Shown piece by piece: positions 3,001-64,000 of a stretch of 64,000 bases of DNA. The position numbers were made by a program, and so were the translations under genes. The DNA is taken from NCBI GenBank assembly GCA_950295325.1, contig OX485807.1, forward strand, positions 10,071,001 to 10,135,000, in the 5' to 3' direction. The stretch comes from Polytrichum commune (Eukaryota > Streptophyta > Polytrichopsida > Polytrichales > Polytrichaceae). Every line of letters starts with the position of its first letter. The stretch's first letter is position 1. The notes beneath the pieces are model-generated. The model made no database searches, was not told where the DNA came from, and was given only the letters and a program-made list of their open reading frames with translations.

Positions 3001-6000
3001 ATCTAAGCTGGGGTTTGAAGCTCTTAGATTGGCCTTGTCCTTCAGTATGTTCTGGGTGAGGAACTTGAGAAGCAGCATCCTCATCCTTCCCATCTCCAGG
3101 ACGGTGGCTAACTTTAACATCCTCAGCTTCAACTAACATTTTGGGTTGTTTCTTTCTTATCAGAAACCCTCCACTTTCAGGTCCACTTGTTCTCCACTTT
3201 TCTTCCATACGATCTCTCAAACTTTCAACTAGTTCTGAAAGGTCTACAGAAAGCATTTCCGAATCATCATACTGCACAAGATGCATACCAAAAGCCTCAG
3301 TTGGTGATAGATTCTGTCCTCCACCTTCATAAGAATCTGATGACAAGGCTTTCTCACCTACAATATCAGGACCATCAAACTTCACATCACTCTCTTCTGG
3401 AAATTTTTGATCTTCAACATCAATCCCCACCCCTGAAGTTCCTAAGTCCTCCTCACTGATTTTACTACCTTGTGGTTCTATAACCTCAGAAGCTGCAGTA
3501 GCATCAACAAGTTGGTTCTCCTGGAAGAAATCCTTTGGCGTTGCAGGCTTCTGTGATTCTAAAAACACATCAAGTAAATCAGATTCACTGAGTTTGGTCT
3601 TGTCCTCTTCTTGCTCTGCCAGAAGCTCTTGGCGCAAGATCTTAAAGTCTTGGCCCTGGGCTTTGATCTTCACTCTCAAATTCCTACTCTTCCCTTGCAG
3701 CTGGACAGAATCCACCTTAGCATCCTTTAGAAAAGCCAGAAGGTCTGAGGCATCCAGCACGTGAGATTGTGTGTGTTCTTCGAGCCCCTGCGGGATCCAG
3801 AACTCCAAATCTTCATTAGTAATCATCTCCTTCACTGCCAACCCTGATGATGCTTGCACTGGGAAGCCTTCTTCTATATTACTGCTACTACTACTATTAG
3901 TTGTGGTTACAAAATGCCACGCTGCATCTCGGGTGGCCGTAAGAGCGGCCTGACTGTGCATCCGCACTTCAGAATTGGTCGATGACCTATCAATGAAGAG
4001 AATCAGGGATGGTGTGTCATTCAGAAAGGCAGAAGAAGCAGACCCATGCTGATGGTGCCCCTCCCCTTCCAGCTGCAAAACATTTGAATTATCCCACTAT
4101 TCACAATGTGCAATTTTGATTCTAGAGAAGTATTAGCACAAACAACAGGAGACCAAGTTGAAGAAGGTGATTGAAGCGACCAACTATCATCATAACTTCA
4201 AGACATGTTCAGCTCCCACGATTGCAATGGCGCACTTAGCAGAGCACTGCATTTATAACCATCAATCCAGAAATTGCATTCATTAGCTTTCATAGATATG
4301 TCTACTGTAGTCATTGTGCAATTTTGAATCTAGAGAAGAATTTAGCACAAATATGATCAGTTGAAGAACTCCTCCTTGGAAATCAATAGCACAAGTACCA
4401 GGTCTTGCTGCAGAAGGTGATTCGAGTGACCAACTATTGTCAGAAACTTCAGAACATGTTCAGCTCTGGAGATTGCAACAGCGAAAGAGCGTCACATTCT
4501 AACGTTAATTTCAAAGACATTCATTAGCTGTCATATGCCTACAGAAGTTTGCAACACTCACCTCCAAGACGAGGTGGTGAGAGACACTTGCGACAAAGCA
4601 TTCCACATCCACTTTGCCATCAAAGACATCAGGAGGACGATGGGGTTCGTGAACAAATGCCAACAATTTCCATGGTGCAGGATCGTTGTCATTGACGAGT
4701 CCTGCTTCGACTGCTACTGCTTTACTTGATACATACCCAAACTTGACCCGATGAGGAGACAAAGCGTTTTTTGCCGCCACAATCGTGAAGTTATCATACA
4801 CAACCTTGAAGTGTTTTCTCTCCAACTCACTGCACACTGAGCCACCACCAACATCTCCCAAAATAATCCCTTCCTTCCCTTGTTGAGTTTCGTTCGAGGA
4901 GTTCGCATTGTATCCTCCTCGTTGCACATAAACCTCTTGCCATGATTGCAAGCCCATTGAAACCTGCAAGGAAGAAGTATCCATCCCAGCCTCGTCCACA
5001 TCTTCGACAAGGAGCTCGGAATTTAGGACTTCCGCAGTGAAATTTGCATGCTTATTAGTGGACATGTTATTTCTATCTGATTCAAAATTTGTCGGCCCAT
5101 ATGCAATCCGGTGCTTTGCTTCCTCTCCCTCTTCATTGTCAGTAGTTCCGAACCCACAGAAGTCTAAAAGCAAGAAACTGCGATCGGTGGAATCTGTCAA
5201 CAACTTCGCGTCCTCGGATGTTCCCAGACGTGCAATTGGGAACCCTAGGTTACTGCTGCTGATAATTCCATACTTCAGAGCCTCCAGAACATGAGGCCCT
5301 GTAAGACGCCCTCCATACACATATGGAACACCATGTCGGAAGAGGTAAATGGTTGGCGACCGACCAGTTGCCAAGAATTTCACTGCAGGACGGTCTCTGT
5401 CTATGTACACGTATCTGAGTTGCACAGCGGTGACATCGGTGACTTCCTCCTTGACTAACCTCGACAAATCTCGCATAAGGCTTCGCCCTTCACCACACCC
5501 TGCAAATTAGGGAAACCTAATCGTCAAAGTGATAATCAGAGATTGTGAAAGAAGAACTTTGTCAAAATGATTTTGGATAAAGAGGTATTGTAGATAAATC
5601 CCTATCTCAAAACTTTCCAGAAGCCTTCACACAGACACGGACAGCATGGACTTGATACTGAGATAAACCCTTCTACGATGAACCATTCTCAACTTCTGAC
5701 TTCTCGACTTCGAGAATAACTGTCAGATGCGCTGTTGCATCCTCGTATTCTAATGAAGTGGACGCACTATCTCACCAAACGGCTGAAGAGGTCGAGGACT
5801 TTGTTTCGAAATTCAGGTTGAAGTCACATGTTACAACATACAGAAGGAGGTCCGCAAGCAATCGGAAGATTGGAGTTCGAAGATATGGAAAAGAGATGCA
5901 TGTGGAGTATTATCTTACATGATAGCATGATGATGCATAGAGTGAACTCATCGTCGTGGACGAGGGTGAAGTTTTCCTGCGTGAGTGCCTTCCAATGCTC

Positions 6001-10312: not shown

Positions 10313-11892
10313 CAGTCTAACCTTGATAATGTCACACCATCCGTTTCACCAAAAAGAGTGATATAAACAAGGTGTGACATATTTGATAATGTCACATTTT
10401 GAAGATTTGTGCATAATGTGATATTATCAAAAAAATAGGTAGAAAATCAAAATAAATTTACAATTTAAAAAATAAAATAAAAAATACGAGACTTCAGTGT
10501 TTTTGAATGTAAAATCTAATTCAAAATTGTGAATAACAACAAGAGCACATCATAACATTTCTGTCATTGAGATCAGGTAAAGACCTCTCACTAGAGACAA
10601 AGAAGCTTCTAATGTCACATTGTTTTGTTGATGTTAAATGTGCAACACCAATTCTAATGAGTTTGTCATGGATTTTTTCCATTCCTAACAACTCCATAGT
10701 GTTGAAAATCTGAGAACCTTGGCTAGCCATAAAATTCAAAACATCTTTAGCATATTTTTGTGCATCGCTTAGCTTCACTAATTTAGACTCATCATCACTG
10801 CTATCAACAATCAATGGGTCTACTTCCATGAAATCAAGAACATGTTCGCCATCTTGCATTAATTGCACAAACTCCTCGGTAGAATATTCCACCTCAAAAT
10901 CATCTTCACCTTCCATGTTTATGTACTGCAAAGGACAAAGCTTTTCTACAGGCTTGCCTTCGACATCCAAACCCAAATTCAATGCGGCGATGAGATTGCC
11001 CAATTCCAAAGTTGCTTCCTCCATTTTGGACTTCATACGTTCATCAAAATTGTTGATATTTGCATTCCACTTTGTAGGCAATATGGCGGGCTTTCTCCGA
11101 CAATTTCTAATGGTTTGATCATCTAATTCATGCCATGCCGCCACACACCATAGCATAGCTTGAAATAGATCAACATTCAGTTTCCCCAAATCTTCATTTG
11201 AGTTGTTATCAATTTGTTGCAAAGTCCAAGCAAACAAGCTTGCGCTTATAGCACATTTTGAATGCTGCAATCACTCCTTGATCCAAAGGCTGTACAACTG
11301 AAGTCACATTTGGTGGAAGGAACAAGATAGTGATATGGGAGAGCACAAAAGCATTAAACCCATCTATAACTTTCTTGAGCTCACCATGAATATCATGGCT
11401 TCCTGCATTATCCATAATAATGCAAATCTTTATGTCTTTCAATGCCATCCTTCGGTTCTCACTCTTCACCCAATGCGTAAAAACATCACCATTCATCCAG
11501 GCTAAATTGTTAGAATAATAGTGTACTGTACTATTTGGATCAAAATTCCAAGGAAAGCATATGGGACGCGCTGATTTGTGAATGAAAATAAGCTTCAATC
11601 GCTCCTTCCCTGTATATTAGTGCAAAGCCCCAATGTCACACGACATTTATCACAGGGGCGGCGCATGACCCCTCCGGCTACTACAATCTGTCCATCCAAC
11701 CATCACATACAATCCATCCATACTTGGTATTATCACATTTACACTACGGATTTTGAAAAAATATAGTGACATTACCAAGGGTGATAGGGATAATAACGAG
11801 GGAGTTTTACACTATGAAAATCGGTTTCAAACTTTTAGGTGACAATATCAAGGTGTTCTATTAACAAGGGTGACATTATCAAGGTTAGACTG
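10313..11892 (-). mobile_element. Tc1/mariner superfamily (pogo/Tigger-type) DNA transposon
   Basis: The ends are perfect inverted repeats beginning CAGTCTAACCTTGATAATGTCAC on the left, with its exact reverse complement on the right (about 23 bp). Both sides are flanked by the dinucleotide TA, the expected target duplication. Subterminal copies of GATAATGTCACA/GTGACATTATC lie inside both ends and may be transposase-binding repeats. The 1,580-bp body carries a decayed minus-strand transposase. Perfect termini with a broken ORF suggest recent movement in trans or recent decay. Confidence 0.92.
10521..11655 (-). pseudogene. Pogo/Tigger-like DDE transposase remnant
   Basis: Minus-strand frames encode LIFIHKSARPICF, then IIMDNAGSH and FLPPNVTSVVQPLDQGVIAA, the hallmark of the DDE_1 domain of pogo/Tigger/jerky transposases. 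The Asp of MDNAGSH and the Asp of QPLDQG are the second and third catalytic positions. The N-terminal HTH/CENP-B-like region and the first catalytic Asp are missing. A frameshift near 11210-11270 separates the catalytic ORF from the downstream ORF (11270-10521), which has an acidic C-terminal tail typical of the family. Another frameshift lies near 11625. Confidence 0.9.
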
Positions 11893-26229: not shown

Positions 26230-28090
26230 CAAGAACTAGAGAGAGAGAGACCCTCCACCAATAAATAACCTTGGTATGTACATATTTCCAGATATTAGAT
26301 GCATGTTAGACTTTCTGATTATCCAAGAATGACGAGCATGCATCCACTCTTGGTATGTATACCAACCCTCTTTTGAAATCTCTCTACCCTCATATCTTAT
26401 TATACAATCCAAGATACTATGATATTGGATTGATGTCTCTCTCATATACCAAATATCAGTCAAGCAAAGAATGTATGTAGAACATAGTGAACATACCTTG
26501 AAGCACAGTAATAAGGTCCTTTACCATGAATTTGACTGCCGGATATGTTGTCCTTGAGAGAATCTTAATTACAAGTTGTAAAAGTTTATGTTTCCGGAAT
26601 CTATTGTTGGCAAGTGTAGAAATTAAAGTTTCAATTTCATTTTTTGCTAGAAGAATGTCACTGGACTAATACAATATAAGTACTGTTTGTCAAACAATGA
26701 CATCCTATACTTGTTTAACTGGCCTATTGGAGTTAAACTTGATGTACAATGTATATGTAAAAGGGGGATTTCGCCTTTTATTAAACTTTTGAAGTTTCTA
26801 AACTCCATTGTCTTCGTTGGAAATTGTTATTAGCACATTCATGAAATGTGCTTTGATACCCGAATTAGGATTAACCATAGAGAAATTAGATTCTTCAGTC
26901 TTAATTTCTAGAATGTGTAGAAAATAAATCTAATATGGGTTATCCATGGTTCTAGGTTGTGTGGGATCAAGAAAAAATTGTGCATTTCCGATATTAAGCC
27001 AACACATGTCATCAATGTATTAGAATGCATGATTAAACCTAGTCATAATATATGTTCTTCCAAGTTTAGTCAATCTCTAAATAAACTTGATTTCAAATGA
27101 TATTAAGTATAGGTTACACCATAATAGGGAACATGATAAACACATTCGTATGCCTAATACTTGTTTCCATACTTGATTGCCCAATCTCACGAAGCAGTTT
27201 GTAGTGAGCCATTTGTATAATGTTAGAAATTTTTCCACTGACATGCAGTGCCAGTCCCCATAGTTGGGGCATGTAGATGCCCAAACCGCTTTAGAAGAAG
27301 TTCCAGTAGCGTTAGTCCGATACCAAATATGTGGTTTGGACCTAGGGTGTCTTCGTTTGAAGTTTTTTACCCCTAGTGAGGTTATGAATTTCATTGCCTT
27401 AAATAAGGTATCTTGTCAATTGACAAAATATGTTGAGGACATGTTGAGGTAAATTGAGATAAAATTCATTTATGGAGTTTATAATCTAATAAATGGATGT
27501 GTCCACTTGGAGGAAGTTTTTATATCCGGTGGTAGTGGTTTTAGCCCATTACTTAACTTCATCAAGAAGTGTCATGGTAGCTATGGTGACTAAAGTAGCA
27601 AAGTTAACATACATGGACCCAAATGCATTTGAAATCCACCTATATTTCTTTTTGTGGGATTTATATATAGCCATGATATATGGTAGTTTATGGCTATCTA
27701 TGGATAAGTCAAATATGACTTCCTGAATTTTTGCATGAAGATTAGAAGTGACCTCATCAATAGATAGCCATCTATCATTGTCCAAGCAAGGTAAAAAACC
27801 ATGGTTATTTAGTCTTTGATATGCTTATTTTCTTATGTGATCAACACATATGAAACATGCATTATTAGAGGCCTTGTCTAGTCCATAAATATATACATGG
27901 TTGAGAAGCCATTCTAACTCATTATTGATAGTTTTGTTTGCAAAAATATAAGTTTGAGAGTACTTGAAGCCAAACTTGCTTTGCATGTAAGCTTCAAGTA
28001 ATATCATTCTGCATATGTAGCGTACCTCCTTTATCGTTATTTTCATGTCCACAAGGTGTGTGATGTTCAATAACTCACAAACCTGCAAAA
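26230..28090 (-). pseudogene. Reverse transcriptase relic, Penelope-like, copy A
   Basis: Minus-strand fragments line up in the same order as copy B at 43-45.35 kb. They are NNACFICVDHIRK (near 27830-27850), YKSHKKKYRWISNAFGS (near 27650-27700), KFLTLYKWLTTNCFVRLG and QVLGIRMCLSCSLLWCNLYL (near 27110-27240). The last corresponds to the RT motif GIPMG.SCSPLW. In this copy it is mutated, and many stops interrupt the frame. The 3' end reads into GGTGGAGGG followed by CTCTCTCT (about 26230-26255), the same terminus as copy B. Reverse-transcriptase identity is strong; assignment to Penelope-like elements rests on general motif style. Confidence 0.75.
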
Positions 28091-38561: not shown

Positions 38562-39931
38562 GGCTAGGGTGAACCAGCACCTACACTCGTACCTTCGGGG
38601 GATGAAGGCCTCGCGGATGACACTGAAAACGTCATCCTTCTTTATGGGAAAGCCCCCCGACAATTTTTTTGCACCCGACCGAAAATTGCTACCCGCCCGC
38701 CCGATTTCGAAAAAACTAGTGTACTTGCATTTTTGAAGGCTACTTGTCCACAAATCCCATATTGAGTGCACTTCATTTTCAAGGTCTCCAATCCAATATA
38801 TATGTTCACTTCCATTGAGTAATAAGCAATTGACTAGATTTCATTTTCAAAGTGAAACCGTCAATAAAGCATGCAATTAACTTGGAAGTCAAAAACATTA
38901 CAAAATCCTCATTAATACTGAGGTTATAATTTTTGTCACTTACAATTGAAAGGGGCCTTGTCATTCTAAAATGAAACTAAAATTCATGATTTATTTATTT
39001 TATTTTAAATATAATATCATGTATTCTAGTATAATGTATTTTTAATATAGTATATACTATAGTATAATATTTAATATTATACTATATATTTAATACCTTC
39101 TACAATCACAAAGTTTTCATACGCATTTAAACTAGTAAAGTAAGATTGAATGCAACTAAGTCTAATAATTTATGGTTAATCCTAATGAATCGTATTCAAG
39201 CCCAATTAAATCAGAAAATATGCGTACCAAATTAATTAAACCTAATTAATTATAAAATGTACTTACTGGAATTAATCATGATTTAAATGGAATTAACTAA
39301 TTTATGATTAATTAGGCATAATTAATTTGGTAAGCATATTTTCTTATTTAATTGGGTTTAATTAGGATTAATCAAAATATATTAGACTGAGTTGCATTCA
39401 ATCTTACTTAACTACTCTAAATGCATATGGAAACTTTGTGATAGTAGAAGGTATTAACTATATTCTATTAAAATATTAAAATATTAAAAATAAAATAAAT
39501 AAATCATGAATTTTAGTTTCATTTTAGAATGACAAGGCCCCTTTCAATTGTAAGTGACAAAAATTATAACCTCAGTATTAATGAGGATTTTGTAATGTTT
39601 TTGACTTCCAAGTTAATTGCATGCTTTATTGACGGTTTCACTTTGAAAATGAAATCTAGTCAATTGCTTATTACTCAATGGAAGTGAACATATATATTGG
39701 ATTGGAGACCTTGAAAATGAAGTGCACTCAATATGGGATTTGTGGACAAGTAGCCTTCAAAAATGCAAGTACACTAGTTTTTTCGAAATCGGGCGAGCGG
39801 GCAGCAGTTTTCGGTCGGGTGCAGAAAAAATGTCGGGGGGCTTTCCCATAAAGAAGGATGACGTTTTCAGTGTCATCCGCAAGGCCTTCATCCCCCGAAG
39901 GTACGAGTGTAGGTGCTGGTTCACCCTAGCC
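38562..39931. mobile_element. Mutator-like fold-back element with very long inverted repeats
   Basis: The element starts GGCTAGGGTGAACCAGCAC and ends with its reverse complement. It is flanked on both sides by CATTGCAAC (38553-38561 and 39932-39940), a perfect 9-bp target duplication typical of Mutator-like elements. The two arms, each about 650-680 bp, read as near-perfect inverse copies around a centre near 39270. The left arm has roughly 55 extra AT-rich bases (about 39020-39090). Both arms hold the same open frame (38771-38514 minus and 39722-39943 plus) simply because they are copies; I regard it as non-coding. No transposase is present, so it is non-autonomous. Confidence 0.93.
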
Positions 39932-42999: not shown

Positions 43000-45323
43000 A
43001 ACTTATAAGTTTTGTGATTACAGAGGACGACAATATTTTGTCCCGTAATGCATTTGGAAAGAATTTTGAATCAAGAATTAAAAAATCAGATAGCTCTGGC
43101 ATAATTCATATCAAGTACTGTAGCCGAGCACTATAATGAATTAACATGATAATATTATTTTCCAAAGTATTTAGACATTTCTACATACCTTATGTTATAC
43201 TAAACTTACTTAAATTGATGTTTGCTTGGAGCTTCTTTTCAAATGTATCCAAATATTGTTATAAATATGTTGTATTTTTTAAAGAATTTAGTGTAATACT
43301 TCCCATCAATGGATTTTATGCATGCCTATGTAATAAGGCCAAAAGATTTCAAAAATTCATTGATCCCAAAACTATAGATAATACTTTGGTTAATCCAATG
43401 GCACATGTACGTACCATGGACACCAACATTATTCATTATCTTGGACTTAGGAAATTTTTTACATTAGGACTAAACCATGTTTCTTTAAGAAATACTAACA
43501 TTAAAAATTTATTCAAGTGGTGGTGGATATTTTTATGTAAGTGTGTTAGGTAGTGAGGCTAAGAGGGTGTTTGGATATCCATAGTGCTATAAAAATAATA
43601 CGTACAAGATGTAAAGACATCCTCATTTCAGCCTTGAAAACTAATATGTATGGGTTTAGGTACTTTAAATCCTACTTATTCTTTGATAAAGTTGTTGACA
43701 ATGAATTATCATGGATATGATAAACCAACCAATAATGCATGTTTTATTTATATCTATTATATAAGATACCAAACCCTTGCTAGATTGAATGGATAGGATT
43801 TTAAGCCATGTCAAAATAATGACATTTGGGAGTTTATTGAAGTAATCACTAGCAAAATAATATCCGATTTATTAGCAATCATACCTTAACTACCCCTTAT
43901 GTGAGGAATAATTATCTTACATAATGACAATTTATAAGTTCCATAAGAAAAAATAAAGGTGGATATCTAATGTATTTGGATCCATTTATATTAATATAAT
44001 CACTCTCTTAACAATTTTCTACTATGTCAATTCTAGAGGAAATTAAGGAATAGGCCCACACGAATGTTGAAGGCAACAAAAGATTCTTAAAGGTTGATAC
44101 GTCGTTATATTGGATCATTGATTCAATAACTGACTTTATTCTAAATGTGCCACATATGATCGACAATATTTATGTGGTAAATATTACGAAATATTTTGAA
44201 TCCATACCAATACTAGGACGAGACACACTATATGAGGTAATTGAATTTATTACCTCATTAGGTGTTTCTAACATGGAACGTAAATTTCTTAAATCTGAAC
44301 AATTCTTTTGGATCAAAATAAATGACAAATGGGTTACTCTTAAAGCAATATGGATATTTTCTGTTCCGAGGCATGGTAATTGGTTACCTTTGACAATTAC
44401 TAAGTTCTTAATGCTCCATAAGTGGCTTACCACTAATTGTTTTGTACGTCTTGGGGATAGAGTTTTAAAACAAATTCTAGGCATCCCTATGGGTTTTTTT
44501 TGCTCTCCATTATGGTGTAACTTGTATCTTTTATCATAAGAGATAAAGTTCATTCAAAGACTTGCGAGACTTGGAAAATCAGATTTTATGAGCAAGTTCA
44601 AATTTGTTTTTAGATACATTGATGATCTCTGTTGGTTAAATGTAGGGGATGCAAGAATATTCCTTGACCCCACGTAACAAATAATTCCGGATAATTTTTT
44701 TTAGATTTATCCTCTTGACATTATTGAAATTAAACCAGAAGTTTTTCAATTTTCCCAAGTATTACCAAAGTATGGCATTATAGCACATTCCATGAATGTA
44801 TCTATTCATGTATATGAGGAAACTTCCAGACAATGCATCATATGGAAGTTTGACAAAAAACGAGACTTACCTTTTACGTACACGCAATTTATCATGTTTA
44901 AATCAAACAAGCCAGTTAAACAAGCCTATAACGTGGTAATATCTTAAATTGTTTCCATTCTTTATTTATCCAACCATGCATTTGTAGCGGCCCAAGAGGT
45001 GTTTGCTCTATTTACAACATTATGAAGTAATGGATTCCGCATCCAAAAGTTAAAGCAGATCACGATCTTATTCTTGATGAATAACCACTTCCATGCAATC
45101 AAGTTTTGCAAAAATGAACTAATTCTCCTACTCAAAGGTATGTGTATGACAACTATTTCAAAGTTTTAGGGAGAACTTTTGAATCATGTATTACACATGA
45201 TTTACATGAGAGAATGAGTGAAAGAGAATTAACTAGAGGATTGGTATGCAAGCCCGGAGTGGATGCATCACTAGCGTCCACTCTTACAATAGAATTGCTT
45301 ACCATGGGTATATAAGGTGGTGG

Positions 45324-45355: not shown

Positions 45356-46031
45356 TCTAGATTTTGCCTTTGAGATATAATTAAATGTAACATTCTTGAA
45401 AAAATGATTAAAACCTTCTACTAAGACTAGGACACTTAGTATAATCTACACCACAGTTCAAACATTAAACTAAACCTAACCATGACTTAACTTACCATGG
45501 TAAAGGAAAGTTACCATGCTCCACGTTTTAGGGTTTTCAATGACCTAAAGCGGCCTCTATACCTTACTAAACCAATACTTAAACCCTAAGCTCCTCCATA
45601 TGAAAACTCTTTTACATGCCTGAAGGAGCAAACTCTTGGCTTAGAATGTAGATACAAGACTAGTGTGGAGGTGCATGTAAAAAAGTTGAATGCATTGAAC
45701 TTTATTATTGTACTTAGTGCCCTAAATCGCACTGAATTTAAACCCTAAGTTTAAGACACTTAGGTGCATGTGAAAGAATTGAATGCATTGAAAGAAATTT
45801 AGTTAACTATAGTTATTTCGGTAGGTTTTTTATTATTCATTTAAAAAAAATTGGGTGACAAATGAGTAGCTTCAATCCTTGACCCGCATTTGAGGAGAAG
45901 GTGCACAAAATCCAATAAAGGTTTGGTATAGTGAATAGCCATGGATTGGCATGAGCAAAGTGGACATCTACAATTGTAGTCTTTCATAGTAAAGGACAGA
46001 GCCTCATGGTTCTACCGTTTTCTTGTTTATT
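45353..46031. other. Spacer, no gene recognised; ends in a dispersed repeat
   Basis: AT-rich sequence without ORFs of interest. About 45955-46030 is the inverse of the 70-bp repeat at 9898-9970. Confidence 0.4.
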
Positions 46032-46775
46032 ATTGTAAGGGCGTGGTGTTTGGCTATTAATTCTGCCTTGAAAATGTTTTTGTAGGCCTAGTAGTTGTAT
46101 TGCAAGTTTGATATTTTTTTCTTGGTTATATATGCCGTAATCCACTTCTTCCCGTACCAAATATCTCCTACATTTTTTGGAGGGTTGAAGTATCCGTCCA
46201 TGTAGAAGCAATATTGGGGAGAGAATTTGAGGGGTGTTTTGTTCTCGTAGTTATGGATTTGGTGTGCAGTTGGGGAATCCACATGTCTTCTTTTGAATTG
46301 CTAATCCCATTTTCCGATTATGGGTAATGAGTATGGTACTGCATAAAATATGTATGCTATTCTTGCTCTAATTATTGTATCTAGCACACTAGTTTTTTGT
46401 TTGATTGTTGCTGGACAATTTGCTAATTGACTACATTGGCTAATTACCTTAGTGATTGTGGTGTGTATTTGTATTTTCCATTTGAGGGAGGGGACGAATT
46501 GGATACCTAGGTATACATATGGTTTGTTTTGGTGTAGTATTGGGACAATCTGGTCTCTATATGTAACGTTGGCGGTTTGTATTTCTCTTTTGAATGTTAT
46601 TTGGTTCATTTTGGATTTGTTAGGGCACCCTGTGACTACACATTTTGATATTCTAAGGTCCATCCCTGCCCATTCATAGTATTTATATGTTTTGTGACTG
46701 TACTGATGTGAGTTTGTTGGTGTTGGTGGCCAAATTGTCTACTTATGCTATAGAGCTGACTGCGGATTTAGACAT
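46032..46775 (-). pseudogene. LINE fragment: RT C-terminal part fused by deletion to RNase H start
   Basis: On the minus strand a remnant of the RT YxDD box (V-DNLA near 46760) is followed by 46663-46301 with ISKCVVTGCPNKSKMNQITF, YVYLGIQFVPSLKWKIQIHT and TIIRARIAYIFYAVPYSLP. This is the thumb and downstream region of a non-LTR RT. It is joined directly to NYENKTPLKFSPQYCFY and MDGYFNPP (46250-46190), the first strand of RNase H. The intervening region seen in the 61-64 kb relative is deleted. The catalytic TDGS is changed to MDGY, and a frameshift follows near 46190. Confidence 0.85.
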
Positions 46776-46860
46776 GCCGAAGGTGTTTCCATAGATTCCT
46801 CTTTGTAGCCACCTTAGTAGTGGTTATAGGAATATGATAACGAGATATGATAACATGATA

Positions 46861-47130
46861 TGAATTCATAGCCATGATCTCTTTATTTTGTGTTAGGCCT
46901 ACCTCCAAGAGATGGCTTTTGAAAATAGTCCACGTGACCATGTAACATGATCCATTCGATGCCATGTAGGAATCCATGTAGACTTTACATCCATCTCGCA
47001 TTCACATAATCCGTCGGTCCCTCAAGCGTAGTGTGAAGCGAACTTGGACCAGCTCCGCCTTTTCCACCAATGAGAGTGCTTGAAATGTAATGGTCACAGG
47101 CTCTCAGTCTCGTGTATGAAGTGACCCTAA
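46861..47130 (-). mobile_element. Partial copy of the PIF/Harbinger-like element at 58.4 kb
   Basis: About 270 bp is the inverse of 58416-58690, sharing GAAGCGAACTTGGACC, GCTCCGCCTTTTCCACCAAT and TGCCATGTAGGAATCC. The outer end GAAGTGACCCTAA matches the inverted end of the other copy. The inner half is missing next to the LINE fragment. Confidence 0.75.
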
Positions 47131-55759: not shown

Positions 55760-56118
55760 TAACATTACCCAACCCAATACTCTTAACTCCGGCGCGGAGT
55801 TCGATGCGGCTCCGATGCGGCTCCGGGGAGGTTCGGATGCCAGCTCCGGTGGGTTCGGGTGGGTTGGGGCAAAAATTGCCCCCTATTTTTTTGATTGGGT
55901 GGGGCCTTACTTGATCTCATAAGGGGCCTCCTAGAGTAATTTGGGGCCGTAGAACCCAAATTTAGCAAAAAAAAACCAAAAAAAGTCATCAAGGGGCCAA
56001 AACGGGGAGGGCCAAAAAAATGGACCCACCGGAGCTGGCATCCGAACCTCCCCGGAGCCGCATCGGAGCCGCATCGAACTCCGCGCCGGAGTTAAGAGTA
56101 TTGGGTTGGGTAATGTTA
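55760..56118. mobile_element. GC-rich MITE with about 95-bp near-perfect inverted repeats
   Basis: The segment starts TAACATTACCCAACCCAATA and ends with the exact inverse. The arms (about 55760-55854 and 56024-56118) appear identical over about 95 bp. They include GGCGCGGAGTT and a doubled GATGCGGCTCC. The central 170 bp is non-coding. Such identity suggests recent insertion. I could not define a direct target duplication; TAA/TTA at the extreme ends would be part of the inverted repeat. Confidence 0.88.
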
Positions 56119-58415: not shown

Positions 58416-58922
58416 TTAGGGCCACTTCATACACAAGTACTGAGAGCCCGTGACCATCACACTTCAAGCACTCTCATTGGTGGAAAAGGCGGAGCCGGTC
58501 CAAGTTCGCTTCACACTATGCTTGAGGGACGAACAGAGTATGTGAATGCAAGATGGATGTCAAGTCTACACGGATTCCTACATGGCATCAGATGGATCGT
58601 ATTAACTGGTCACTTGGACTATTTTCAAAAACCACCTCTTGGAGGTAGGCCTAATACAAAACCAGGAGATCATGGCATTCCAAACGCTCACAACCGTCAA
58701 TTTGTTTTATTTTATCATATGTGAGGACCCGCATGAATATAATTTCATTGGAATAGCATTTTGATTGAGGGCATGGTTGCATATGACTTCACACTGCACT
58801 TGAGGGTCCGTGACCACACTATATGATTTGGGAGGTGTCTTGGGACGGCCTTTCGACACTTTCTTTTAGGCTCTCACAATTTCATGGTCATGGCTCTTGG
58901 CTCGTGTGTGAAGTGGCCCTTA
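58416..58922. mobile_element. PIF/Harbinger-like non-autonomous element
   Basis: The ends TTAGGGCCACTTCATACACA and TGTGTGAAGTGGCCCTTA are inverse copies. Similarity runs inward about 40 bp (GAGCCCGTGACCAT versus ATGGTCATGGCTC). Each end is abutted by TTA in direct orientation, matching the 3-bp TTA target duplication of PIF/Harbinger. The 507-bp body has a 140-residue ORF (58302-58724) that crosses the element boundary and is not credible. A partial inverse copy is at 46861-47130. Confidence 0.78.
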
Positions 58923-61274
58923 GTGTAACATGTCATAATTTACTGACCCGCAATAATCCACAAGAATCCACGTTCAAGATAAATCACGGGTCCACAATGA
59001 TCACACACTAGCGAGATCATTGACAATAATAACATAGACATAATATTATTGATCTGGATATTGGAGCCCTTGAAATACAATGTAAGATTACGACTTATAA
59101 AAGCAAGATAAAAAAAATTAACATACTCCAACATACTAATTGGTTTAAATAATGGAGATCATTAATTAAATGTGAAAGTTAATGTAGATATCATTCTTTT
59201 GGGTTAATATGAAGAAATTGTCCACGGCATCATTTCAAGTATATCATGCATGCATATTTTGTTGCGAGCTTATGTGAGGGTGTTGACTCCATTCAATGGT
59301 TGCCACTCCAATGTAAACTTTCCATGGACATAAACATGTTTATTTTGGTAAAAGTGGTATTTTGTGATGCTCATGCAAGAACGACATGTGTGCTCACATC
59401 AATTGTTTAATTTAATGTTTTAACATTCTTTGATTTTTAAGGAATTATTTGCATATGGGACGATTTACATACTTCTAATGCAACGCAACTAGCCTATTAT
59501 GGTTTGCAAATTTTTGGCAAGAGAAATCGTGGAGGTGGTCAACTATTGAAGTTAACCATGTAGCATTCCACTCCCTTTTCATGTGAAATGGATTGGACAA
59601 AGGTCTTTTATGAGGGATAAAACATGACATTTTCTTGTGCATCCCTACCTTCAATTGTTATAATCTAAAAATAAAAACAATTATTCATGTCCATTCCACC
59701 TATAAATAGCTCGTTTCCCACATTTCAAGAACCTACATAAATTCCAATATAAGCTCATAACTTGTCCATGAAAATTCCACGATCAACATAGAATGAAATG
59801 CTCCCAAAATACCCTACCCCCATAGGCTTGGGATGTTAGGGGTTAAATATACATCTTTTACTCTCTGCATTCATTTCTTGTAAAATATGAAACACGCAAT
59901 TAGTGCGAGATGATCAACAATTCGGACTCATGTCCTTAGCAACTTTTTTGTAATTGTAGGAGCTCATATATACATCTTATTCATTGTCAAAGTGAAGATT
60001 CTCATGCTCACTGGATGATCGTATAGGCTCCCATCCCCCAATTATGTTGCTTATTTCTTGGTCAATAGATTTACGCAAGTAGTCCATTATTTTCTCAACA
60101 CATATCTTTTTGGTGTTTGTTCTTAGATTCACACCCAACCATACATCACTCAAAATATAGGTGTTTGTTTATGAACGAGCACCATGTTAGGCACGTCTAC
60201 CTTATTCTTCATTGTGAGCAAAGAAGATTACCATAACACAACATCAGAGAATGTATAAGACTCTTGTTTTGTTGGGCTTGTAACCCAAAACTCACACATA
60301 ACATAGAGCCAACATTGTGTATCAATGTTATACACTTGAAACCATTAAATGTATGATTGTGGTACATAGTGTTGGTTTTGGACTTCGCATTCTATTCATC
60401 TTCTCCAACTTCCACATGTATAATTTGGCCCTCTGTTTTTTTGACAGTGAGTACAACATATGTTCAATGTACACCAATGTAGTTGTTGCCCATGACATTG
60501 CAATAATTGGTGTGACCTTTGACCACAACTTTGAAGTCTTTGGTATAGTCTTTGGCATCCACTAAATTGTATTCCATGGTACCATGGCGAGCCATACATG
60601 TTATGTTCACCAACGTTGGAGTGTAATGTGTATGTGAGATTCAATGCCTAAAGGTTTGCAAAGCCCAAATTTTGGTTGTAAATTTTGTGTAAATTTAGGG
60701 TGTTGGACAATGGAAATTAGATTTGGGACTCAAACGTAGGAAATGTGGGTGTAAGTACCACATGTCCTCCCAACATTCAAGGAAATTTGATAATTCGTTA
60801 CCCAACTTTTAGGCTTTCTATAACATAGTGTTTTACGCATGAAACCATATTACAATTGGCTTGGGGTTCGTGGCGTCTATCTAACTCACTCATGATGGAC
60901 AAGAAGATTCCAATATAAACAAGCCCCATTCAATTTGAGGGTTGATTCATTCCAACTAAAACCCATTAGACTAATTGAGGGTCTTTGATGTTATTAATGA
61001 AGTGAAAACATTTAAAAAAAATGTGCATGCTTAGACATAATACCTCACTACGATGTCACCTTCCTAATGATGAGTTTACGCAAAAACAATGTATCCATAA
61101 CCAATTAGTTTCTATTCATTATCATTTTATTTAAACATGTGAATCATTGAGGGGGGGGGGGGGAATGACATCTGTAAGGGAACAAGTTGAACTCACACAT
61201 AGATAGTTGCCCATAACAAGTATGGGAAATGACTCCTAGGCATGTTAGTTATTGCAGGATTTAGATGCTTGTCA
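58923..61274. other. Intergenic, no gene recognised; contains a dispersed repeat and a G run
   Basis: Apart from the copy-3 repeat at 59880-60165, only short ORFs without motifs are seen. A run of about 13 G lies at about 61150-61163. Confidence 0.4.
59880..60165 (+). repeat. Dispersed repeat, copy 3 of 3
   Basis: It shares ACACGCAATTAGTGCGAGAT, AAGATTCTCATGCT, AATTATGTTG, AAGTAGTCCA and ACATCACTCAAA in the same order as 12777-13168 and 2050-2300. Confidence 0.65.
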
Positions 61275-64000
61275 ATGGTGAAGCATTTTCACTAAAAAAT
61301 GCCTACCTTAGATGTATCAGGGAACAACTCATAAATGCACTAAATGATAAAGGCAAACTTGGAACAATCTACAAGGGTCTTACACACTATATACTTGCTA
61401 AACATTAAGGTGCAAAAAACATACCTAGAATGAAACGCCACGACTGTAACCAATCACCCACCACTAGAACAATATACCTTATAAAAGCAGCAGGTGGAGC
61501 CCATCTCAGAAGTCAAATAGAAATTTTCCCTTTGGAAGCAACGCCAATTGAAAAAAAAAAACATAAACTATGCATAACACCACCACCCAAAAAAATCTTT
61601 ATTCAAAATCTAAAACACATACACAAACTACTCTTAGAAAACATATATGATATAAAACAACTCACTCTAAGGAATGACATACACTTGATGTCCTATACTA
61701 AATATATAAACTTCTACAAAAAACCAACACACGTGATAAAAACAAGCACTAAAAATAGAAGAACAATTATTTTGCCACCCAGGATGCAATGAAAATTGTC
61801 AAGAGCCATGCCAAAATCATAACCCACCAGTCACACTAGAACTAGAATACATTATAACAAGACATAATATAGAACCTCTAAATAGTGATACCCACACACA
61901 ACCACCAACCCTAACACCCTAACACATCTAATACACCCACCCACACCACACACATAATAAACAACCCAATAAAATACCCTATATACTCAATAATAGATCA
62001 TTATACGAAACCAATCAAAGACAATCATAAAATTATAAAAAAAGCAGTACACATACCTATGCCATTGGATACTACCCGATGATACAACTTATAACAAAAA
62101 ACTCCCACTAAGAAAATTGTTCCCCTATAACATCCCAAAAGTCATACAACACAATACAAATATAATACTCACATACTTTACCAAGAAACAACATACACTA
62201 TATGAAAATATCATACAAGAAAATGATTTTTCTACCCAAAACAAAGACCCAAGGCACAATCCCCGCCCCTAAACATCCCTCTCGTAAAAATTTCAACACA
62301 TGAATGCAACCCCGAAAAAGATATCAATACTAACACAAACAAAATTCAAGTACAAGATGACATTGCCCACATATATGACGAAACAAGCAAACATCGTATA
62401 ACCATTCCTTATAATAGACTTGCATGGCTTTGGACCCAATACAACCAAATGCCACACCAACCACACGACCTAATACCCCCCACCCAAACATTCGAAATAG
62501 AATTAACTTGGCTATATCAAAGATATAAACATAGAATCAAAAAATGACCCACTCAAAAACTCACACCACCTCCTACCCAAAGTACTATTAGACTACATCA
62601 CAACATCCTTTAACATTACCCATTCCTACTTCTCCTCACTAGTTACATGCTCCACTCAACTAACAAAATCCTTCTCGCCATTTCCCAAACACACATGTAA
62701 TCCCTCATATATCGGCAAATACCACTAAATACGAGGAACCAACTAAACCTCCAGAACTCAGCGAGCCACGTATAGAACCATTTGCTATTAGAATCCTTTG
62801 CATACACCACCAAAATAACAACATCGGTACCATAGAACAAATGGACACAATCAAAAATATATGTGATGACCTTAACATAAACCGTACAACCACACAAATT
62901 GCTCCTCCTAGCTTGCAAAATATAAAAGTTAACAAAAGCAAAACATGGAATGCCCTCACTTACTCAAGTCCATACACACACAATCGTAACACAATCCCAC
63001 CAATCCCAAACTACGAGAACAAAACACCCCTCAAATTCTCTCCCCAATATTGCCTCTACACAGACGGATCCTTCAACCCTCCAAAATAGGATATACATGG
63101 CTACGGGAAGAAGTTGGTTACGGCATATATAACCAAGAAAAAAAAATATCAAACTTGCAATACGACTACCAGGCCTACAAAACATTTTAAGAGCATAATT
63201 AATGGCCATACACCACACCCTTACAATAATATATACAAACTTCCCAAATGAACCCGCACATATCTTCACAGACTGCCTCAATGGCCTATATGTGATACAA
63301 AACCAAATAAAACACCCCACACCTCATAACAACCACCCAAATAAAACTATTTTAGAATAAATAATTAACTTCCTTATACAAAGGATTCAACCCACAACAC
63401 TATATAAAGTAAGAGCATATGCAAACATCATGGGATTGAATTATTGCCTTAAGTATTAGATTAGACTAGGATTATTTAGAACTACTAAAGCTTTATATTT
63501 TTGAAACCTTTGAGACAAGTAGCCGATGACATAAGGTAATGTCTAAAGTGGTTCATCTCATCCATAAAGATGACTGAACTCTTATTACTGAGAATACATG
63601 AGTGCCACGAATCCCCGGCCCGGAGGGCCCCGACACATGCCTACACGTACTTCTAATGTGCAAACAACACCACATACATGCCCTCCGAACCAAAAGCCAT
63701 AATAAGGCAATATGAGAATTAAAAAAAAAAAAAACTTATAGTGGCATCAAAAAAGTCAAAATGTTATATTCTCATGAATGCATGCACATTCAATAATAAC
63801 CCACCATAAAACACAATCCCCCATGGCTACTACCTTGCACGTGTGGTCAACAAAGATGTCATTGCAATGCCAAATTCAATCCAGACATCTTATGTGTGAA
63901 AGGACTACCATATCAATCCCCACCACCAACATAACCAAATGGGAACCTAACAATACAATTCATGGAATTCACATATCGTAATGATAGAATACCAGATGAT
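61275..64000 (+). pseudogene. 3' half of a LINE: RT tail, RNase H, zinc region, restriction-like endonuclease segment
   Basis: Plus-strand blocks run in order. AFSLKNAYLRCIREQLINAL and AAGGAHLRSQIEIFPLEATP (61275-61560) are the region downstream of the RT thumb. NYENKTPLKFSPQYCLY and TDGSFNPPK (63010-63085) start RNase H; TDG carries the first catalytic Asp. LMAIHHTLTIIYTNFPNEPA and HIFTDCLNGLYVIQNQI (63200-63310) follow. The catalytic Glu codon before LMAIHH is TAA at 63196. HVLLMCKQHHIHALRTK is near 63645. CTCGQQRCHCNAKFNPDILC is near 63840-63895, then after about 25 residues IQFMEFTYRNDR near the window end. The PD...E-F-T-Y...NDR pattern after a CCHC-like cluster resembles the restriction-like endonuclease of early-branching LINEs. 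Many stops and frameshifts make it dead. The element continues past the window edge, and its 5' part is missing. Confidence 0.85.

Follow-up and report, generated by a model that had tools for sequence, protein, structure and literature searches.

A 64,000-nt stretch of the genome of a land plant, the moss Polytrichum commune (C5:10071001-10135000; hereafter the window), most probably contains dead copies of an abundant non-LTR retrotransposon with two endonucleases, of the Dualen/RandI type. From sequence comparisons, we put the probability of this reading at about 0.82. The initial annotation had proposed a land-plant LINE that joins RNase H to a restriction-like endonuclease (RLE) in the manner of Dualen/RandI, and the relatives found in the genome agree with it, since they carry an APE endonuclease, a reverse transcriptase (RT), RNase H and an RLE of the LINE type. 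A PCIF1-like domain, 2A-like motifs and a structured 3′ RNA come in addition to that proposal. In the relative L055, ORF2 is arranged in the order 2A-like motif, APE endonuclease, RT, PCIF1-like domain, RNase H, CCHC knuckle and RLE; a linker lies between the RT and the PCIF1-like domain, and a zinc region between the knuckle and the RLE core.

Copy A (61268..64000, plus strand) is a 5′-truncated and decayed dual-endonuclease LINE, delimited by co-linear tblastn matches to residues 1774-2918 of the 2,919-aa frame of L055 (three groups, with E values of 1.6e-74, 1.1e-59 and 2.6e-66). It begins with the end of the RT thumb, the linker and the start of the PCIF1-like region (61268..62544, plus strand; L055 residues 1774-2195, in shifted frames). 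A PCIF1-like remnant, FNITHSYFSS.VTC.., was located at 62470..62715 on the same strand by comparison with the copies that have an intact frame; the segment equivalent to the NPPF motif of PCIF1 was not found when L055 was aligned to the window. RNase H follows at 62990..63435 (plus strand), with the motif KVRAYANIMG, and a CCHC remnant, the zinc region and the start of the RLE at 63632..64000 (plus strand), both recognized from motifs and the match to L055. All the motifs quoted in the initial annotation are present, TDGSFNPP at 63,060, FTDCLNGL at 63,265, CTCGQQRCHC (the C-X-C-X4-C-X-C zinc region) at 63,836, PDIL at 63,881 and EFTYRNDR at 63,965. They occupy three frames, split by frameshifts and stops, and the co-linear match of the L055 frame shows that they are not chance occurrences. 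Extension past position 64,000, which the annotation had advised, completed the RLE segment: PDIL is followed by a stop, EFTYRNDR, then K-T-stop-K-Y and more sequence, so that K-X2-K-Y is interrupted by a stop, and the protein match ends at 64,267 (position 4267 of the locus L009, C5:10131001-10141000). At about 63,434-63,628, copy A has 193 bp where many sister copies, for example the one at C2:9.166 Mb, have about 430 bp; two sister copies on C6, among the matches listed, share the 193-bp form.

The second copy that had been announced at 46.0-46.8 kb was confirmed at 46,847-46,007 on the minus strand. This decayed copy B (46007..46847) contains the end of the RT and the thumb (L055 residues 1563-1765) and then RNase H (residues 2399-2505); the linker and the PCIF1-like region of L055 were not found between these two parts. 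Copies A and B are 88% identical in DNA over 240 bp of RNase H. Both are broken, and the APE and most of the RT are missing from each. A 238-nt repeat present in opposite orientation at 46871-47108 and 58439-58676 (89%) has one of its two units directly upstream of copy B.

A third copy, C, lies just outside the window (64,684-67,920, minus strand) and has a 541-aa frame running from RNase H to the RLE. It seems to have inserted in the opposite direction into the 3′ UTR of copy A, because the match of copy A to its sisters stops at the complement of the TTC-rich tail of copy C (L009 4230-4600, equivalent to 64,230-64,600). Since copy C intervenes, the 3′ RNA of copy A cannot be read. The present state of the window copies would result from 5′ truncation, deletion and nested insertion. 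Pfam searches with the broken window pieces alone gave nothing useful, and the anatomy of the element was read from better-preserved relatives. A PDB search with the extended RLE of the window gave a single match, which was dismissed as chance.

The genome comprises 407.8 Mb in 64 contigs, and n = 7 is likely since contigs C1 to C7 make up about 406 Mb. Among ordinary single-domain LHC chains, one of its light-harvesting proteins scored highest with 8htu and 7xqp of the moss Physcomitrium (463 and 461 bits), followed by 8c29 of spruce (440 bits), 5zji of maize (433 bits) and 6kac of Chlamydomonas (389 bits), in keeping with a land plant and probably a moss; a longer LHC chain, 9vfj, reached 521 bits. 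Fifteen loci were taken by match length from the best 150 of 2,620 RVT_1 candidates and, for that reason, are not a random sample. Eight of them, L011-L018, are related to the window element and make up family A, and the seven others (L019-L025) are of the L1 type. The locus L055, picked for a PCIF1 match within its 2,919-aa frame, is of the window type, which is designated family B. Protein identity between L055 and L011 is 46% in the APE, 61% in the RT, 36% in the PCIF1-like domain, 40% in RNase H and 42% in the RLE. The collection of copies from the genome, another step advised at the outset, thus yielded two unbroken ORF2 among nine full relatives, those of L055 (2,919 aa) and L011 (2,372 aa). 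L011 is the only family A copy with ORF2 in one open frame, the seven others being broken by stops or frameshifts. An ORF1 lies upstream, in stop-to-stop frames of 1,302 aa in L011 and 1,513 aa in L015, and its pieces gave no Pfam match.

The abundance of the element was estimated with two queries. The 541-aa RNase H-RLE sequence gave at least 81 match rows in the whole genome, a lower bound because 80 of 6,236 candidates were scored. By a hand count that includes copy C and one duplicated copy on a small contig, 48 of the 81 rows are free of stops in the matched part, as opposed to the whole ORF2. With the DNA of the window copy as query, at least 69 matches were found (40 scored of 1,173 candidates), at 78-100% identity and including the window itself. 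The two copies tested showed no target-site duplication reaching 7 bp. Scans of viral contigs with the RLE, PCIF1-like and RT alignments returned no relatives; a bacterial match to the RT at 26% identity, from the scan of prokaryote contigs, was dropped as irrelevant.

Several domains of ORF2 were recognized by Pfam. In L055, RVT_1 scored 95.8 bits, RNase_H 54.8 bits and PCIF1_WW 47.0 bits (cut-off 31.1). RNase H (PF00075, cut-off 25.8) reached 55.0 bits in L011. The APE of L055 was matched by Exo_endo_phos (PF03372) at 25.5 bits for a cut-off of 24.5, and that of L011 by Exo_endo_phos_2 (PF14529) at 32.3 bits (cut-off 27.4), PF03372 staying at 21.2 bits, below 24.5. The APE keeps GDFN and SDH, the RT keeps YADD, and RNase H keeps TDG, RAEL, FTD, K-V-[RK]-A-H and GNE.AD, landmarks which we take to be the catalytic sites.

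The six tested regions of family A ORF2 are under purifying selection. The median dN/dS was 0.164 for the APE (21 pairs) and, over 28 pairs each, 0.049 for the RT, 0.210 for the linker, 0.179 for the PCIF1-like domain, 0.062 for RNase H and 0.103 for the RLE; these ratios are rough because the median dS exceeds 1 in every region. In the close pair L015-L016 (dS 0.07-0.16), dN was lower than dS in every region. Stops were encountered in the APE of 2 of 7 family A copies, and in the RLE and the linker of 1 of 8 each. Judging from the open frames and the selection, this LINE family was active in the past and perhaps recently, even though ORF2 is broken in all family A copies except L011.

The most unexpected part of the element is the PCIF1-like domain. 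Pfam PF12237 matched this region in all eight family A copies at E ≤0.1, with a best value of 5.5e-9. For L011, PCIF1_WW scored 27.4 bits in the full ORF2, below the cut-off of 31.1, and 31.2 bits with the region alone. In the genome, at least 150 places passed the cut-off (150 scored of 697 candidates; best E value 1.1e-12). Ten of these best 150 of 697 were inspected, and six run in frame to the start of a LINE RNase H, one with a stop. A profile of 13 rows searched against the PDB had just two matches up to E 10, with PCIF1 in each case (E 0.014 and 0.32); the profile of the eight family A rows retrieved three unrelated chains (E 1.5-2) and no PCIF1. The NPPF motif is missing from all 13 aligned rows, where the position reads [FYH]-P-x-[DNT], as it does in ten stretches looked at separately, some of them from the same copies; NPPF of PCIF1 aligns to fPtd of the element. 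Because the profile matches PCIF1 and the NPPF position has diverged, the domain is related to PCIF1 and probably not catalytic. The titles and abstract openings found, in literature that includes few subscription papers, contain no description of a PCIF1-like domain in a LINE, and a search of such literature for PCIF1 together with transposable elements and a methyltransferase in green algae returned none.

Two readings of this domain were considered beyond simple kinship. The LINE may have captured a PCIF1 domain which lost its catalysis and was kept as a module binding the cap or the 5′ end, the two RNA ends being selected jointly and the two nucleases splitting the strands between them; we regard this full scenario as tentative and on balance unlikely. 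If it were true, the same protein would hold a structured 3′ end and a capped 5′ end, thereby selecting full-length templates, and the two nucleases would divide first- and second-strand cutting. The other reading, in which the domain methylates adenine in spite of its diverged motif and thereby marks RNA or DNA of the element itself, is still less probable: the domain reaches 47-56 bits with Pfam in high-scoring copies, is conserved between the families and has a dN/dS of 0.18 in family A, but the catalytic NPPF is replaced in every row at the very position where that of PCIF1 aligns. Deprived of NPPF, the PCIF1-like domain would most simply be an RNA-binding module, perhaps for the cap or the 5′ end, and not a methylase. 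The conservation of such a domain in a LINE points to a novel means by which retrotransposons could deal with capped RNA.

At the level of motifs, a C-terminal RLE of the LINE type appears to be present. In the excerpts available, LINE RLEs are described as having in common a knuckle of the form CX2-3CX7-8HX4C and a catalytic Lys, the leading residue of KX2KY, and the RH pair that opens the first helix is important in R2Bm (PMC5678591); for the R2Bm RLE, Asp996, Asp1009 and Lys1026 are given, the Lys being on a helix (PMC10499050), and these passages also refer to GXW towards the end of the fold. Nine of nine moss rows are unchanged at the C-X2-C-X9-H-X4-C knuckle, at RH, at the zinc region (C-X-C-X4-C-X-C) and at K-X2-K-Y, the knuckle spacing of X9 being one residue longer than the published X7-8. 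In a ten-row alignment that includes copy A, the Glu is invariant, and the Pro and the Asp of PD are each found in nine of the ten rows; two rows thus depart from the full signature by a single residue. GXW was not found in that form in the moss RLE rows, which show G-W. The initial annotation had suggested profile searches of the C-terminal segment against R2, Dualen and Utopia endonucleases. Among 177,635 PDB sequences the RLE profile had two distinct matches up to E 10, 8gh6 and 8ibw, both the Bombyx R2 protein; they lend support but are weak (E 0.35) and span the knuckle/RH part only.

In PDB searches, the RT of L011 scored 131 bits against the R2 protein versus 72 against L1 ORF2p, and the L1-type RT of L023, the one tested, showed the reverse pattern, with 140 bits against L1 ORF2p chains and 63 against R2. 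In an unrooted RT tree of 19 rows, in which long branches were flagged, the nine sequences of families A and B form one group (100/100) and the seven L1-type elements another (100/100); the three R2 rows fall on the side of families A and B. An RT tree had been proposed in the initial annotation as a means of placing the element. In this one, whose sequences are limited to families A and B, R2 and, as the sole APE-only clade, L1, the element separates from the seven L1-type elements.

These results bear on the view that the element is an ordinary APE-only plant LINE, an L1 with a C-terminal RNase H whose zinc and PDIL/EFTY motifs form a nucleic-acid-binding tail. An APE and an RNase H are both present, as plant L1 can have them according to the excerpt available (PMC4640811), and the RLE segment gave no meaningful Pfam match. 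Against this, the CCHC knuckle, RH, PD...E and K-X2-K-Y follow each other in the published order and are kept across families that are 42-44% identical there, the segment evolves with a dN/dS of 0.10 in family A, and the RT matches R2 with a much higher score than L1 and forms a cluster separate from the L1-type elements of the genome, which makes this explanation very unlikely. We consider it least probable of all that the element belongs with the RLE-only LINEs (R2, Utopia, NeSL), having gained RNase H and keeping a degenerate APE-like remnant: R2 is the solved structure closest to its RT and the sole match of the RLE profile up to E 10, and the APE barely exceeds a Pfam cut-off, but the APE passes such a cut-off in the one copy scanned per family, retains GDFN and SDH and has a dN/dS of 0.16 in family A, while RNase H lies downstream of the RT and retains its His, unlike that of Utopia.

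The dual-endonuclease reading was compared with known systems. In the excerpts consulted, a single Dualen/RandI element carries an APE together with a PD-(D/E)XK-like endonuclease (PMC3636483) and also has an RNase H (PMC4640811). The moss element shares the N-terminal APE, absent from the truncated window copies, the RNase H in the same ORF and, at the level of motifs, the C-terminal RLE. Dualen/RandI elements belong to green algae such as Chlamydomonas, whereas the present host is a land plant; the 2A-like motifs and, in family A, a three-way-junction 3′ RNA further distinguish the moss element, and the PCIF1-like domain between the RT and RNase H may do so as well. It would thus be Dualen/RandI-like in what it works like, and is set beside Dualen by description, not by sequence. 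In the part of the text available, where Dualen falls is taken as evidence that APE elements arose by swapping the RLE for an APE (PMC4640811).

With R2, NeSL and Utopia, the element has in common the RLE signature of CCHC knuckle, RH and K-X2-K-Y (PMC5678591, excerpt), and the RT of R2 is the closest one solved; R2 also recognizes the RNA of its own 3′ UTR (PMC10499050, excerpt). Those elements have one ORF and no APE, the RLE being their single endonuclease, whereas the moss element has a conserved APE; in Utopia, RNase H, where present, lies upstream of the RT and Arg replaces His (PMC4640811, excerpt). The L1-type elements of the genome (L019-L025) share an RT with it, and an APE was matched in two of the four frames scanned. 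These four frames contain zf-RVT, and neither RNase H nor PCIF1_WW matched them at E ≤0.01; the moss element has an RLE and its RT falls outside the L1 clade. The cap-adenosine methyltransferase PCIF1/CAPAM resembles the element through the PF12237 match and as the only protein found by the 13-row profile, and differs in that the catalytic NPPF is not kept by the element, whose domain is embedded in a retrotransposon ORF. A literature search on RLE LINEs, covering few subscription papers, returned only R2 reports with moss and none with conifer.

2A peptides separate translation products co-translationally. A 2A-like motif, GD[IVM]xxNPGP, occurs upstream of the APE in seven family A copies, the exception being L018, where neither the motif nor the APE was found; it reads GDIETNPGP in L055. 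The motif is doubled in L011, L012, L013 and L017, the two occurrences being about 430-800 bp apart, which suggests that a 5′ part of ORF2 was duplicated. A single open frame of L017 connects the end of ORF1 with the APE and includes both motifs. By analogy, the 2A-like motif would separate the products of ORF1 and ORF2 during translation.

The 3′ end of family A consists of a 103-109-nt RNA, in which a three-way junction closed by GAGCCC/GGGCUC is followed by a terminal hairpin; T-rich tails, mostly TTTTC-like, come after it. The same fold was obtained for all eight copies, with z values from -5.3 to -8.1, and compensatory changes were seen at 12 of the 35 pairs when the eight sequences were compared. 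Ten 3′ ends of the window type were taken, and two were excluded (L045 is without its start and L053 does not align). The eight remaining rows have a similar layout with a different sequence, GUGCCC/GGGCAU closing two hairpins. The closing stem is absent from the best fold of L054 itself, and the consensus fold omits the terminal hairpin. Compensatory change was seen in 1 of 27 pairs, the variation being too small to test covariation. Searches with the covariance model of family A recovered the eight copies it was built from and three weak minus-strand matches inside them, with no match in the window, in L009 or in the other loci given, a set that does not comprise L045-L054. Homology of the two 3′ RNAs is accordingly deduced from their layout. 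Rfam gave no match in three loci. At the 3′ end of four window-type copies (L049, L050, L052 and L054) stands a long microsatellite, (TG)n in one copy and otherwise (TC)n. The idea that the pyrimidine tails reflect insertion into microsatellites was abandoned, as the two 5′ flanks examined contain no such repeat.

Taken as a working model, the element would move by target-primed reverse transcription. Its protein, freed from the ORF1 product at the 2A-like motif, would recognize its own 3′ RNA; one nuclease would nick the first strand and the RT would extend from the nick, RNase H would remove the template RNA, and the second nuclease may cut the second strand or refine the choice of site. With such an abundant dual-nuclease family in a land plant, the role of each nuclease becomes testable, and the covarying 3′ RNA could serve directly as substrate when target-primed reverse transcription is assayed.

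Other repeats and genes were noted in the course of the analysis. Two related fragments of the window, at 44054-44539 (plus strand) and 27077-27415 (minus strand), share G-I-[PR]-M...C-S-x-L-W-C-N-L-Y-L and resemble a Penelope-like reverse transcriptase. The frame FLPPNVTSVVQPLDQG at 11209-11616 (minus strand) resembles a pogo/Tigger DDE transposase. A 451-nt inverted repeat (98%), with arms at 38562-39012 and 39481-39931 that are 468 nt apart, has related sequences near 19.4 and 52.5 kb and would represent a fold-back element or MITE family. A shorter inverted repeat of 95 nt, 100% complementary and with arms 169 nt apart, is located at 55760-55854 and 56024-56118. Elsewhere in the genome, 58 light-harvesting matches were counted, and 14 light-harvesting genes with identical match scores are clustered within about 95 kb at C5:1751760-1846160.
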